From positions 500,880 to 564,879 of the forward strand of contig JALVSY010000007.1 of assembly GCA_027036135.1 (NCBI GenBank): a stretch of 64,000 bases of DNA, written 5' to 3'. A model generated the notes under the pieces. The model saw only the letters and a program-made list of their open reading frames with translations. It did no database searches and had not been told where the DNA came from. This document shows, piece by piece, positions 2,633 through 58,387 of the stretch; the first letter of the stretch is position 1; the number at the start of each line of letters is the position of its first letter. This DNA is from Pyrodictiaceae archaeon (GTDB taxonomy: Archaea; Thermoproteota; Thermoprotei_A; Sulfolobales; Pyrodictiaceae). The translations under genes and the position numbers were made by a program.

Positions 2633-5311
2633 ATGAAAAGAAATATATTAATTAGCAAATATCATAGCATTATTATCTTGTTATTGATTAGTACTATAGC
2701 TATAATAGTAATTCATTGGAAAGTATTTGAAAGTTATGCTTGGCCTAAAGTAGTACTGATAACAGATAAAATAGGAATATTTACTAAAATAGCGCTAATT
2801 TTAGGAATTAATCCTATAAGATTTAAAGAGATTTTATATATGTTATTTGATTTTATTTCATTATTAATAATTATTTTATCTATTAGAAAATTTAATGTTA
2901 GATTTAATATATTAAGTATTATTACAATGCTGGCTGCTCTGCTCTATTTTGTGTTCTATCCATATAATAGGCTTATGGATGCGTGCTTCAGAGGCTTATA
3001 TGTATTAATGACATTAGGATCTTCATTATCAATTTATGCATTAATATCTATAATAAGCGATAAAAATATAAAACAAACCATAAAGGATTCGTTTATATAT
3101 TCTTTGTTTTTACTTATAGTATTCATTACGGTAGGACAGTGGGATCCTAGGATATTTCTTTATCCATTAATAATTATATTATCTATTACTATAATACAAT
3201 TCATAATACTGATAATCAGTAGATATGTAAAATTCTTTATTAAATCCCTAATATTTATTGTACCTCTTACTATATTGCTTTATGCAGTAGGAAAAATTAG
3301 AATGAAGCTGGCAGAGTCAATATCACCTATAGTACCGTTTAACTTAAATGCATTTCTTGGCTTCTATGATGTATTTCACTTAACTTCAGGAACTTCATGG
3401 ATTTTAGTGAATAAGCCTTCTTTAACTTTAATTCATGTGGCTTCATTATTGCTTACAGTTGATTTATTATTGATCATATTGTTCCTTACAGTAATGCATT
3501 CTGTAGATGAACAAATTTATAATATAAGAGCATATATATATGCTCTTATATTAATATATATAAGTATTATGATATTTGAATTAAATATACATAATGTAGT
3601 CAAATTTTTCTTAATGAATAGAGAAGATGGATTTTTATTTGCTAAATTATCTATTATAAAATATATATTATTAATGTTTAGGGTACCAAGATTTATGGAC
3701 TTTACTAATAAAACAATTATAACAACACTAATTATACTAGCTGGCTACCTAATATCTAAGGTAAACAAAATATCTGAATCAAGTACAAGGATAAATGCTA
3801 TATTAATACTAATTATGATAATATCATTGTCTCTAGCCTTGTGTAATGGATTTATGTTAAGGCCGCTTATAAATAGAGGAGCTATATTTAATCCAAACCC
3901 GAAATCAATAACTTTCTTAGGTATACCTAGCAAGATACTGACCAGGAGCTTTCCTATTGCTGATTGGAATAAGGAGAAAATATTGCTTAACTCTTTCTTA
4001 TTCGGTAAAATAAAGATTGGTTCATTACAGCTCTATGATCATGGGGTAATACCAATAGAGTTTAAGCCATATGCAGATAAATTTATAAGGGCTGGATTTT
4101 TTGTTAAAATTGTGCGCCTACATAAATTTTTTGCTGTTGTGCTGCTTAATAGGACATTGTTATATGGCCGACCAATTCTTATACCGCAGGGACTTTATCT
4201 AGGAAGTATTGTCTGGTCAAAAGGTTATGTACCAATATACCTGGATCAAATAATTCCAAGAAGATATGCTAAGGAACTTATAAATTTGCATTTGCCAATA
4301 GTTATATATAAAAATAAATATATTATAGAAAAGAACTTAGCCGTATGGCTTCTACTAAATAGAGTAGTAGATATTAATAACTCTAACTTGATTATATTGG
4401 TTCCTTCAAAATATACTACATGTTTTATTTCTAGCCTTACCTGTTGGAGTCCGGGCTTTATAGGGGATCCGCATCAAGGAATATTCTATGAACCAGGAAA
4501 CTATGAATATGATTATACGTATAAATTAAATTGGGGAGTTATTCAGGGAAGAGACGTTTATAAACCATTTATTATGCACTTTTTCTCCAAGAGGACAGGT
4601 AACTATATAATATTGTTAAGACTCATGAGTACTGGTAAAGGAATATTAGATATTTATATTGATAATATGAAATATAGTTTAGCTATAAATAGGACAGAAA
4701 CTATTGATTCCCGATTAGGATTTATATGGTTTAATATATCCAATGTTACAATTCAGAAAGGTATACATACTTTAAGAATATACTGGATTTCTAGAAATAA
4801 AAATCATCCAACTATATATATAAATTTAGTATTAATAATTCCGAGAAAATTATGGCAACAAGCATTTGAGTATGCCATGAAGTATATAGAGAAATATGGG
4901 ATTAATATGATAAATTTACAAAAATTCTTTAAAAAATCTCAAATACATATAAAGGAAAGTATAGAAAATTATCCATTTATTGGTAAAAAGATAATTATTA
5001 AAATAACAGTATTTAACGCAAATATTTCTCCAATAGCATTTGATACCAGAATACTATGGGGTTATACCTTAAGAGTGCATGGTAGCGGAACTCGTATCAT
5101 ACTATCAGTTCCTATAGATTACGTAAAAGCAGGTATACTGGTTGTTCCTTATTCAAAGAATTTTAGTATTTACATCGAAGGCTATGAAGGCTACACGACT
5201 CCGAAAGGCTTATTAGAGATACTTTTTGCTGATATTGCAACAGTAGTATTACTTTATTTTATCTTTACAGAAGCTTATAAGATAAAACGGTATTCGATAA
5301 AATATAAGTAG
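2633..5311 (+). CDS. Large polytopic membrane protein in the glycan locus, with a C-terminal soluble domain
   Basis: 892-aa ORF, many TM segments in the N-terminal half, extremely AT-rich. Confidence 0.75.
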   Translation: MKRNILISKYHSIIILLLISTIAIIVIHWKVFESYAWPKVVLITDKIGIFTKIALILGINPIRFKEILYMLFDFISLLIIILSIRKFNVRFNILSIITMLAALLYFVFYPYNRLMDACFRGLYVLMTLGSSLSIYALISIISDKNIKQTIKDSFIYSLFLLIVFITVGQWDPRIFLYPLIIILSITIIQFIILIISRYVKFFIKSLIFIVPLTILLYAVGKIRMKLAESISPIVPFNLNAFLGFYDVFHLTSGTSWILVNKPSLTLIHVASLLLTVDLLLIILFLTVMHSVDEQIYNIRAYIYALILIYISIMIFELNIHNVVKFFLMNREDGFLFAKLSIIKYILLMFRVPRFMDFTNKTIITTLIILAGYLISKVNKISESSTRINAILILIMIISLSLALCNGFMLRPLINRGAIFNPNPKSITFLGIPSKILTRSFPIADWNKEKILLNSFLFGKIKIGSLQLYDHGVIPIEFKPYADKFIRAGFFVKIVRLHKFFAVVLLNRTLLYGRPILIPQGLYLGSIVWSKGYVPIYLDQIIPRRYAKELINLHLPIVIYKNKYIIEKNLAVWLLLNRVVDINNSNLIILVPSKYTTCFISSLTCWSPGFIGDPHQGIFYEPGNYEYDYTYKLNWGVIQGRDVYKPFIMHFFSKRTGNYIILLRLMSTGKGILDIYIDNMKYSLAINRTETIDSRLGFIWFNISNVTIQKGIHTLRIYWISRNKNHPTIYINLVLIIPRKLWQQAFEYAMKYIEKYGINMINLQKFFKKSQIHIKESIENYPFIGKKIIIKITVFNANISPIAFDTRILWGYTLRVHGSGTRIILSVPIDYVKAGILVVPYSKNFSIYIEGYEGYTTPKGLLEILFADIATVVLLYFIFTEAYKIKRYSIKYK
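3520..3553. repeat. 34-bp perfect palindrome inside the membrane-protein CDS
   Basis: TAATATAAGAGCATATATATATGCTCTTATATTA equals its own reverse complement. Confidence 0.9.
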
Positions 5312-5367
5312 TGTGTGCAAACATGGTTATTAGAATATAAAATATAAAGACGATTAGGATGAAATAG

Positions 5368-6600
5368 ATGATGAGTAGATCGGGTAGAGACGAGAGTTCA
5401 TCAATATGTAGGAGGATGGTGAAGGGTCACCCTATAATTATTTATGTTTCTCCATTTAAGCCTGAACCAGGTTCTGAGTATCACGAGTATTTTGTTAGAA
5501 CACTTAGGAAACATGGAGTGCCAGTAATAGTACTTGCTGGTATACCTAGGTCTGAAGATTATAAAAAGAAATATGGTTCCATTGAAAAATACGGTAATAT
5601 TATAGTTTTTAGATCGTTCTGGGCCCCTAGGATACAGTCGATGAAAACATTTTTTTCAAGTATAAAATATGCCGTGTTATCGTTAAGATCTTTAATAAGG
5701 GTAATAGGTATTGCTAAAAAGCTCTCGTCATCTGTAATAGTTATTTTTAATTATGGAGCTACCAGGGAACCAGGTATTATATTAGGTGAGCACCACCCCT
5801 TAGGTATGCTTCTTGCAAGGCTTGCTGGCGCAAAGGTTGTATGGATTATACATAACTTTCTAACAACTACCCAATTAAAGAGAGAGGTTAGAGAACATGG
5901 CCTTCCTAGGTTAATTAGTCTCTTTGTTATACTTTATTATATTTTTATTAATAAACTTGCGGCCATATCTTCGCATAAAATAGTAGTTCTTGTAAACGGT
6001 CCGAATGCATACATAACGGAGTATTTTAAAGAGATACTAAAAGAAAAGAGAAAGGTTATTGAAGAGGTTCATCCTGTATTTATGGATAATAATATAAATA
6101 TAAATAATAGTGCTAATAGTATATTAAGTAATATATATAATAAAAAGTCTTATATATTAATAGGATGTATAGGATATATAAGACGAGGAAAAGGATATCA
6201 TGTTTTATTAGATTGGCTTAGAAAGCTTAAGAATAAAAATTATGATCTTTATCTTAAATTGAGGGTTCTTATTGCCGGATTTGTTGCAGATAAAAGAGAT
6301 ATAGCTAACTTACAGTATATTATAGAGCTTATAAAAATGAAAAAAAGATATAAATTAAATAATGTTATATTTTTATTAAATAATTTAACTGATGAGGAAT
6401 TTAAAAAGTTAATTAGTATTAGTGATGTAATCTGGTGCGCTTACGAGAAAGATTATGGTCCTAGCGGAATATTAGCATGGGCCAAAGGATACAAGAAAAG
6501 AGTTATTATAAATAACTCTTCAATTTGGGCAGGAGAAGAGCCGACTAAGATCAATACATTTAGTGAGCATGTAAGCAGAATATTAGAGAGCCTTGATTAA
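5368..6600 (+). CDS. Family 1-type (GT-B) glycosyltransferase
   Basis: HPLGMLLARLAGAKVVWIIHN... and C-terminal SDVIWCAYEKDYGPSGILAWAKGYKKRVI. Confidence 0.75.
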   Translation: MMSRSGRDESSSICRRMVKGHPIIIYVSPFKPEPGSEYHEYFVRTLRKHGVPVIVLAGIPRSEDYKKKYGSIEKYGNIIVFRSFWAPRIQSMKTFFSSIKYAVLSLRSLIRVIGIAKKLSSSVIVIFNYGATREPGIILGEHHPLGMLLARLAGAKVVWIIHNFLTTTQLKREVREHGLPRLISLFVILYYIFINKLAAISSHKIVVLVNGPNAYITEYFKEILKEKRKVIEEVHPVFMDNNININNSANSILSNIYNKKSYILIGCIGYIRRGKGYHVLLDWLRKLKNKNYDLYLKLRVLIAGFVADKRDIANLQYIIELIKMKKRYKLNNVIFLLNNLTDEEFKKLISISDVIWCAYEKDYGPSGILAWAKGYKKRVIINNSSIWAGEEPTKINTFSEHVSRILESLD

Positions 6601-7738
6601 ATTTAGGCTTTCAACTTCTTCCTATAATATAAGGATTATTGTGCTTGTTGTTACTTATAATTCTGTGGGTTTTGTTGGAAGGCTTTGTGGCTCTATTCTT
6701 TCCCAGGATTATGATTTGTCGCGTGTCTTGGTCGTTGTTGTTGATAATGGATCTGTTGATGGTACTGTTGAGGAGTTTTTGAGGTGTCTGGAGAAGGGCA
6801 GTGTTAACTATGTTGTTGTTAAGCTTGGTAGGAACTTGGGGTTTACTCCTGCTAATAATGTTGGCTTGGCTCTGGCTAGCAGGGTTTTGGGCGGGTTTGG
6901 TGACAAAGTTGTTCTCTTGTTGAATCCTGATACTTATTTGCTTGATAAAGGGTTTTTCCGCGTAGTTGATAGGGTTTCCAGCGCTTTACCTGTGGTGGGG
7001 TTTGCTACTGTTTCGGGCGAGGGCGGTGAGGTTGTTGATAGTATAGGTATGTTTGTTGATTTTCTTGGGAATCCGCAGGACTTGTTCTGCTGTGTTAGGT
7101 TTACTCCTAGGCTTCGTAGGCTGGTTCTCGATGTTCTTCCTCGGCTTTGCTTGGTCCCGCTTGTTTGTTTCGCGGCTGTTGCTATACGTGGTGATGTTAT
7201 CTCTAGGCTTGGTTTTTTGAGGAATGACTACGTGATGTACTTTGATGATACTGAGTATTGTCTCCGGTTGTGGAGTAGCGGTGTTCCTGTGGCCGTGTAT
7301 AGGGGGTTTATGGTTTGGCATGCTCGTGGGGGGACGCAGAGGAGCCGAGGAGATCCTAGGGGTAGGAGCGACCAAGTATTCATGGACATACCTTATCATT
7401 TCGCGAAGAACAACTTGTTGCTAGTATATGAGTATCTTGGGCCTATTCGCTATTTTCTGCGGCTTCTGCTCTACGGAGTAATAGGAGCCATTTGGCGTAG
7501 GAGATACCTAGCGTTCGCGATCACTGATAGCATAAGACTTATAGTTAAGAGAGGGGTCCGGAGAAGGAGGCTCCCGAGGGGCCTTGTACCATTCAGTCCC
7601 AGGACGTGGACGCTCCTATGGGCGTTGAAATATTTTATAAGGTATCCGGCGAGAGGACTGAGCGAAGCAATATCCTATGGAACCAAGAGGGCCTCACTAG
7701 AATATATAAGGCTTCGTGTCTTGAAAAGACTTCGCTGA
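6593..7738 (+). CDS. Family 2 glycosyltransferase, rhamnosyltransferase-like
   Basis: VLVVTYNSVGFVGRLCGSILSQDYDLSRVLVVVVDNGSVDGT; LLLNPDTYL; MYFDDTEYCLRL. Confidence 0.9.
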   Translation: MIKFRLSTSSYNIRIIVLVVTYNSVGFVGRLCGSILSQDYDLSRVLVVVVDNGSVDGTVEEFLRCLEKGSVNYVVVKLGRNLGFTPANNVGLALASRVLGGFGDKVVLLLNPDTYLLDKGFFRVVDRVSSALPVVGFATVSGEGGEVVDSIGMFVDFLGNPQDLFCCVRFTPRLRRLVLDVLPRLCLVPLVCFAAVAIRGDVISRLGFLRNDYVMYFDDTEYCLRLWSSGVPVAVYRGFMVWHARGGTQRSRGDPRGRSDQVFMDIPYHFAKNNLLLVYEYLGPIRYFLRLLLYGVIGAIWRRRYLAFAITDSIRLIVKRGVRRRRLPRGLVPFSPRTWTLLWALKYFIRYPARGLSEAISYGTKRASLEYIRLRVLKRLR

Positions 7739-56479: not shown

Positions 56480-56574
56480 TTGAATACTATGGGGATAGGC
56501 TTATATAGAAGACTATAACCTATACTAGCCAGGAATACAGAGTAGCAATACTCCGCATATAATGGTGATATAAA

Positions 56575-57107
56575 ATGGTAGATGATATATATATATATCT
56601 AGGAGAAAATTTCTAAGCGGCCTCATTGCCTCATCAGCTTTAGTATTTCTATCCCCTATAGTTTCAACCGCTAGAAGTCTTAAGCCGCAAGAAAACGCTG
56701 GCCTAAAGATTGAAACCTCTATCGAGGGTGTGAAGGAATTTAACTTTGACCTCTATAAGCTACTCTACATAAAAAGCCATACCATAGTATCCCTTAAGGG
56801 ATTAAAGAAATATGATGCCAAGGTATCAGCTTTTACTCTAAGAGGCATTGTAAATGGTATGATGGAGCCTTCTATATTGTTTATAGATGAGAGCACTAGT
56901 GGTAAAACAACTATAATAGCCTATGCTGATGATGAGGAATACATGATAAAAAGCATTAATAAATCACAGCCTACCACTAAGAAAGTAATACTATCATTAC
57001 TAAACTCTATAGAAAGTGAAGCATCAAATAAAGGATTTAAAAAGCTAGTTAGATACATTGATATAATAAAGAAAAGTATAGAAGTAATTAAAGGTGATAC
57101 CCTATGA
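56575..57107 (+). CDS. Tat-signal-bearing small protein; ATG 56575 and the signal frame are offset by an (AT)6 tract
   Basis: Frame from 56586: YIYISRRKFLSGLIASSALVFLSPIVSTARSLKPQENAGLKIETSIEGVKEFNFDLYKLL...; ORF track begins only at internal ATG 56730. Confidence 0.6.
56587..56598. repeat. (AT)6 dinucleotide tract at the 5' end of the Tat-protein gene
   Basis: ATGGTAGATGAT-(AT)6-CTAGGAGAAAATTT. Confidence 0.8.
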
Positions 57108-57364
57108 CAAGCAAGGACGAGTTAAAAGCATTTTATATCGAAGAAAAAGATGTAGATGCCTATAATACACTATTTAGTAGAATTAGTGATATTGATGATC
57201 TTGATAAGAGTCCTAATATAGAGCCGGAGACATTTGTTGCACCAGTTACGGCAATTGTCTATGTAATAGGTCTTCATGATGTGATTATTGCTTTGAACTA
57301 CGGATTTTATGTTAACGCAGCCGTATATGAAAACTTATATAAATGGGTTCATGTATGGGGATAA
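57104..57364 (+). CDS. 86-aa precursor-like peptide with acidic N-terminal half and hydrophobic/aromatic C-terminal half
   Basis: MTSKDELKAFYIEEKDVDAYNTLFSRISDIDDLDKSPNIEPETFVAPVTAIVYVIGLHDVIIALNYGFYVNAAVYENLYKWVHVWG; ATGA overlap upstream, radical SAM gene 3 nt downstream. Confidence 0.65.
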   Translation: MTSKDELKAFYIEEKDVDAYNTLFSRISDIDDLDKSPNIEPETFVAPVTAIVYVIGLHDVIIALNYGFYVNAAVYENLYKWVHVWG

Positions 57365-57367
57365 GCT

Positions 57368-58387
57368 ATGATCCCTCGGCAAATTTCAATTATTTTCACG
57401 TATAAATGTAATTTCTTTTGCGATCATTGTTCCATGATGGCGTCTCCTAGCGAAAACATGGTTTTTGATTTTAGTCTATTTAAGAAAATTATTGATGAAG
57501 CGCGTGAAATCCCCTCAATATATACTATAGTGTTTACTGGTGGAGAACCAACACTTTATTTCAAGAAACTTTTACGATTTATAAACTATTCTTATGAGAA
57601 CGGTTTCAATACCCGCTTAATCACAAATGCTTGGTGGGCGTATTCGTACTCTTCTGCACTATCTATGGTACGTGAGCTAAGAAAGTCTGGCTTAAGAGAA
57701 ATTAACATAAGTTTTGATGATTTCCATTATTATTGGCTTAAGAAATATTATAAAGGCGAAGAAAATCTAGTAAATGCCGTCAAAGCCTCTCTTGAAGAGG
57801 GGCTTCGTACACTAATTGCTATAGCACGCTATAGTAGTGGTCAGAAAATAACAAAAAGTTATGTAGTAAATCTATTAAAGAAAGAAGGAGTGGATTTCAA
57901 AAGGATAATAATTTCTGAGGGGTATATATCGAAAATAGGACGAGCACTAAATGTACATACGACGTTCAATAGAGATGACTTAAATATTTTAAGAAACGAG
58001 GTTAGGAAACCATGTACCGAAATAGGTACTACAATAACGATTAAGCCGGATGGTAAAATACTTGCGTGTTGTGGGCATATAATTAGAACCAAAGCAGCTG
58101 ATCTATTTGAGGTTGGTAACGCGTATAACGATAGTCTTCGTGAAATCATTAAACGTCTATGGAGAAATATTCTCTTTTGGACAATTTATCTTAAGGGACC
58201 ATATTATGTACTAAAGAATATACTAGAGACAAATGATAATATAGAGGATAATTTTATCAGTAAATGCGAGATATGCTATCTTCTAGGAACAAAATTTAAA
58301 TCTAAACTTATTAATTATTTCTATAAGAATAAATATAATATAATTAATAGTCTAAGGATATATTATAAGGGATATAAAGATGAATAA
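57368..58387 (+). CDS. Radical SAM protein with SPASM-like C-terminal Cys cluster
   Basis: TYKCNFFCDHCSMM (CX3CX2C); VFTGGEPTLYF; KPDGKILACCGH, FEVGNAYNDSLREIIKRLW, KCEICY. Confidence 0.9.
   Translation: MIPRQISIIFTYKCNFFCDHCSMMASPSENMVFDFSLFKKIIDEAREIPSIYTIVFTGGEPTLYFKKLLRFINYSYENGFNTRLITNAWWAYSYSSALSMVRELRKSGLREINISFDDFHYYWLKKYYKGEENLVNAVKASLEEGLRTLIAIARYSSGQKITKSYVVNLLKKEGVDFKRIIISEGYISKIGRALNVHTTFNRDDLNILRNEVRKPCTEIGTTITIKPDGKILACCGHIIRTKAADLFEVGNAYNDSLREIIKRLWRNILFWTIYLKGPYYVLKNILETNDNIEDNFISKCEICYLLGTKFKSKLINYFYKNKYNIINSLRIYYKGYKDE

Follow-up and report, generated by a model that had tools for sequence, protein, structure and literature searches.

A candidate slippage-driven AT switch before the twin-arginine signal in two diverged archaeal operons

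In a draft archaeal genome of 2.21 Mb in 40 contigs, a run of AT units lies between the start codon and the twin-arginine (Tat) signal of a gene for a predicted exported protein, and the number of units sets the frame in which the signal is read. A second, diverged copy of the operon has the same design. The run is probably a phase-variable (contingency) locus driven by slippage, and both copies would be OFF in the assembly. Phase variation driven by repeats has been described mostly in host-associated bacteria, and there are few documented cases in archaea. With this layout in two diverged operons, the present genome, probably that of a hyperthermophile and lacking MutS, offers a clear candidate in which the question could be tested directly from AT counts. 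According to a review from 2025, extending the search to archaea may inform explanations of phase variation (PMC11868660).

Start region and reading frames of the Tat gene

The window, i.e. the whole stretch of 64,000 nucleotides that was analysed, is part of contig C7. Around the start of the Tat gene the following features were located:

56501..56507, + strand: putative TATA box of the operon (TTATATA), read from the sequence
56564..56569, + strand: Shine-Dalgarno-like GGTGAT, 5 nt upstream of ATG 56575, read from the sequence
56575..56616, + strand: OFF-state frame starting at the main ATG, MVDDIYIYLGENF and stop, from translation
56582..56584, + strand: second ATG, sharing the frame of the Tat signal at n = 2 mod 3, from frame reading
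56585..56598, + strand: (AT)7 run, the proposed switch, from the sequence
56586..57107, + strand: frame of the Tat-signal protein, open over 173 codons, in the assembled state without a start codon before the twin arginine, from sequence and homologs
56598..56615, + strand: twin-arginine motif SRRKFL, its first base being the final T of the AT run, from sequence and homologs

Reading in the Tat frame is uninterrupted between the TGA at 56583-56585 and 57107; the frame starts with YIYI, directly followed by SRRKFLSGLIASSALVFLSPIVSTARS. Re-reading of the frames bore out the initial annotation in placing ATG 56575 out of frame with the Tat signal, with a stop after 13 codons, and in finding no ATG, GTG or TTG upstream of the twin arginine in the Tat frame, where only YIYI follows the TGA. 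The count of six AT units given there has to be corrected, since the pure run comprises seven. Removal of one unit does lead into the Tat frame, as had been proposed: at n=6 ATG 56575 is joined to the signal. In silico, this ATG is in frame with the signal at n=6, 9 or 12 and the second one, ATG 56582, at n=5, 8 or 11. With n=4, 7 or 10 (n = 1 mod 3) neither of them reaches it, and the assembled n=7 is thus an OFF state. A GTG at 56730 was also considered as the true start. It lies downstream of the whole signal peptide and was rejected because the Tat signal would be lost, though family-wide conservation shows that the signal is translated.

Runs of this kind are rare. AT runs of at least six units occur at four sites in the 2.2 Mb assembly (7, 8, 8 and 8 units), two of which are the Tat gene of the window and its paralog, at the identical place in each. 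First- and fifth-order models built from the composition of the window give an expectation of about 0.04 (first-order) to 0.5 (fifth-order) runs of at least seven units per genome strand, compared with the four observed in pattern searches. According to the ORF lists, the other two runs, both (AT)8, are intergenic. The one at C7:60372-60387 lies in a short ORF (MLAMRVMFIRTNYNIYIYI...) that is extended or ended according to n, and may be due to chance. The one at C16:479248-479263 precedes a 256-aa ORF that starts like a signal peptide; about 55 nt separate the run from the ATG, and an effect on promoter spacing is possible.

Among 60 relatives, seven contain such runs, and at the nine sites read none joins an ATG to a Tat signal. 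A search for an AT run followed by RRxF-like codons in 232 genomes of the class gave four matches outside this genome, no more than the reversed control. In a further genome (G035), a methyltransferase-like gene (Methyltransf_11/23; locus L072, G035:C15:139900-142900, minus strand) is broken into two frames, the break coinciding with an (AT)7 run, and reads ...LKRGG before and IYIYITTRSKGFPFHGYPYDFW... after it; the gene would be in frame at n=6 or 9. It also suggests that frames in the group are broken at AT runs, with a sequencing error being possible.

The Tat protein and the second copy of the operon

The product of the Tat frame is a predicted Tat substrate. The motif SRRKFL (SRRKFI in the paralog) is followed by a hydrophobic stretch and an A-x-A-like putative cleavage site, S-T-A before RS in the window protein and S-I-A before RS in the paralog, as read from the sequence. 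In addition, the translocase component TatC is encoded in the genome (113 bits, above the cut-off). A profile of both Tat proteins detected homologs at locus L061 with an E value of 8e-9, at L060 with 1e-6 and, weakly, at L065 and L059 (database size set to 5000). Their twin-arginine signals are conserved as KRREFL (L060), RRRELL (L061) and TRREFL (L059). All three genes have an in-frame ATG before the signal and no AT run. The Tat reading is thus real, an in-frame layout is normal, and the AT run is a peculiarity of the present genome. Neither a Pfam family nor a convincing solved relative was found for the protein, and the AlphaFold single-sequence model of its mature form is poor (pLDDT 54).

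Three further genes of the operon follow the Tat gene in the window:

57104..57364, + strand: small protein of 86 aa, resembling a precursor of ribosomally synthesized peptides (RiPP), its ATG overlapping the stop of the Tat gene (57104-57107), from sequence and homologs
57368..58387, + strand: radical SAM (rSAM)/SPASM protein, best family TIGR04078 (YydG/EpeE peptide epimerase), under the cut-off, from family search
58380..58961, + strand: membrane protein with a bacterial PH-like domain (PF10882), from family search

A protein search revealed one paralog of the Tat protein in the genome, at C30:286779-287261, with 36% identity. It belongs to a second operon built from the same kinds of genes, for a small protein, for a protein of the radical SAM/SPASM type and for a membrane protein of the PH-like type, the last two being swapped in order. 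Between the two operons the Tat proteins are 36-40% identical, the rSAM proteins 48-49% and the PH-like proteins 38%. The 5' end of the paralogous gene is ATGTTGACAG-(AT)8-CAAGACGAAAGTTTATAAGC, consisting of ATG, 7 nt, (AT)8 and SRRKF, and the spacing between ATG and tract is the same in the window; GGAGAGTGAT precedes the ATG of the paralog. This ATG is likewise out of frame with its Tat signal, reading MLTDIYIYIKTK... to a stop (30 aa), and the offset is opposite to that in the window. In both genes the main ATG is in frame only at n = 0 mod 3.

The two copies are old, since few four-fold degenerate sites match between them (21 of 54 in the rSAM gene, 7 of 28 in the PH gene and 4 of 21 in the Tat gene), so that silent sites are near saturation. 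Despite this the pure AT run has been kept in both. The S-R-R-K codons adjoining the tract show synonymous differences at all four positions, and the Tat frame therefore seems to have been under selection at the protein level as far as the tract. An ABC transporter ATPase and an ABC-2 permease (L005 7589-9261), encoded as a pair in divergent orientation beside the paralogous operon, might serve the peptide in export or immunity.

The AT run as a putative switch and its alternatives

The initial annotation had offered a phase-variable switch, an assembly error or initiation at AUA. The first of these is favoured here because the ATG-(AT)n-SRRKF layout recurs in the paralogous operon, where n is different and the signal is again out of frame. 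Slippage of the DNA polymerase would lengthen or shorten, by whole AT units, the run that separates the start codon from the Tat signal. Whenever n is a multiple of three, ribosomes starting at ATG 56575 would enter the SRRKFL signal, and the protein would be made and exported by Tat; with n=7, translation would stop after 13 codons. This OFF state may also mean that less of the small precursor-like peptide and of the rSAM enzyme is translated, as the ATG of the next cistron overlaps the stop of the Tat gene. The second operon copy would carry its own switch, and cells with ON and OFF alleles would coexist.

The features agree with those of known contingency loci, where the repeat is typically found at the 5' end of a gene for an exported protein (PMC2831843): the run is longer than expected by chance and its unit number sets the frame. 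In bacterial loci based on simple sequence repeats, too, a repeat just downstream of the start codon determines the frame of an exported or surface product, and several loci occur per genome; the present case differs in its archaeal hyperthermophilic host, the dinucleotide AT, the RiPP-like operon and in being known from assembled sequence (PMC11868660). The poly(A) tract at the 5' end of Listeria inlA is similar in that slippage yields a very short peptide and reversible silencing, but it is a mononucleotide tract, whereas the archaeal one is a dinucleotide tract present in two paralogous operons (PMC2831843). MutSL is absent from hyperthermophilic archaea, and in Sulfolobus acidocaldarius frameshifts in short mononucleotide runs are prominent (PMC4471258). 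MutS is absent from the present genome. However, NucS is encoded and might limit errors, and a highly mutable tract would be expected to be longer than (AT)7-8. Furthermore, ATA and TAT are common in the operon, so that a pure short I-Y-I stretch is only mildly surprising, and the OFF state of both copies in the assembly would fit decay as well.

Such decay, in which the Tat genes of a horizontally acquired operon drift out of frame by slippage without adaptive switching, is unlikely. It would agree with the low GC content of the operon (35% versus 49% in the window) and its appearance as an accessory insertion, with the degraded second cassette at L065 in another genome and with the split methyltransferase gene of G035. 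Yet no other damage is seen in the four genes of either copy, both Tat frames run for 170 codons without a stop, and either two unrelated events at the same spot or one old event with preservation of the rest would be needed. Rather unlikely is transcriptional slippage, i.e. stuttering of the RNA polymerase on fixed (AT)7 and (AT)8 runs, which would generate mixed mRNAs with some in frame and hence a constant low level of product instead of a heritable switch. It would account for AT runs kept in both copies though neither is in frame, and with one additional unit in the RNA both could be read, the window gene at n=8 from ATG 56582 and the paralog at n=9. However, no archaeal dinucleotide case was found in the literature searched, and the documented cases lie mostly on homopolymers (PMC1088944).

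An error of assembly or sequencing, with a true n of 6 or 9 and a gene simply in frame, is unlikely too, though like decay and transcriptional slippage it is a live alternative. A draft in 40 contigs invites this suspicion, as the consensus of a metagenome-assembled genome can err at repeats, but two homologous genes on different contigs would both be affected, by independent errors with different n (7 and 8), and the other long ORFs listed in the window are intact. That translation begins inside the run at AUA or some other unusual codon, already in the Tat frame whatever the value of n, is very unlikely, even though between the upstream stop and the signal of both copies the only sense codons are ATA and TAT (plus CAG in the paralog). 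It leaves unexplained why a Shine-Dalgarno-like motif and an ATG, in frame at n = 0 mod 3, stand at a fixed distance in both copies; the relatives use an ordinary in-frame ATG, and to our knowledge no AUA start has been proven in archaea. Programmed ribosomal frameshifting on the AT run from the ATG frame into the Tat frame can almost be dismissed. For archaea, one -1 case has been established with fucA1 of S. solfataricus, where the gene of a thermophile is likewise out of frame at an A/T-rich run (PMC8211752). Unlike fucA1, both genes lack the X-XXY-YYZ heptamer, and a common programmed frameshift is unlikely since the copies require opposite single-base shifts, -1 (or +2) in the window and +1 (or -2) in the paralog.

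The radical SAM cassette and its relatives

The operon around the putative switch resembles an epipeptide-type RiPP system. The rSAM protein of the window contains the CxxxCxxC motif (C14-x3-C18-x2-C21) and matches the SPASM domain (PF13186) above the cut-off. Both rSAM proteins match TIGR04078 over the whole length, with 97.7 and 96.5 bits compared with a curated cut-off of 300; at a score so far below it, the enzyme is predicted as one that may act like an epipeptide epimerase. Its small neighbour is rich in Val, Ala and Ile in the homologous loci. As in the epeXEPAB (yydFGHIJ) operon of Bacillus, a small peptide gene adjoins a YydG/EpeE-like rSAM gene, a membrane protease occurs in two relatives, and the paralog has an ABC pair next to it (PMC8326336, PMC7026026). 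The archaeal system differs from that of Bacillus in the sub-threshold score of its enzyme, its occurrence in Thermoproteota and its extra partners, a Tat-exported protein and a PH-like membrane protein. Tentatively, two independent AT switches could randomly toggle whole epipeptide-like operons via translational coupling, leading to mixed populations of producers and non-producers as a form of bet-hedging without MutS.

The site of the cassette in the window is occupied in a complete genome of the same genus (G004) by a different gene of 581 aa between homologs of the same flanking genes, and the cassette thus looks like an accessory insertion. In the genome of a close relative (G001), where the flanking gene is 96% identical, the contig stops before the site. 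With a profile of the two rSAM proteins, relatives were detected in ten other genomes among 401 of the phylum at E 1e-25; none was found at E 1e-30 in the other 231 genomes of the class or at E 1e-15 in 60 near relatives. Scans of genome contigs and viral contigs with the Tat and rSAM alignments gave remote rSAM proteins only (L020, L021, L022), and a comparable operon was absent at both genome-contig matches examined.

Several relatives share the arrangement of a Tat-signal protein, a small Val/Ala-rich protein, an rSAM protein and then membrane proteins, with an Rce1-like membrane protease near the cassette in L060 and L061. The finding points to an epipeptide-like cassette shared by several Thermoproteota, for which no description was found in the literature searched. 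The locus L065 (G282:C1:1261000-1271500) contains at 4893-6618, in reverse complement, a second, degraded Tat/rSAM/PH cassette in which the rSAM and PH genes are broken. At L062 (4556-7834) and L063 (G313), a related rSAM gene has as neighbours an ABC transporter gene and a gene for a small protein whose long leader is followed by a Val/Ala-rich tail, an arrangement that is RiPP-like.
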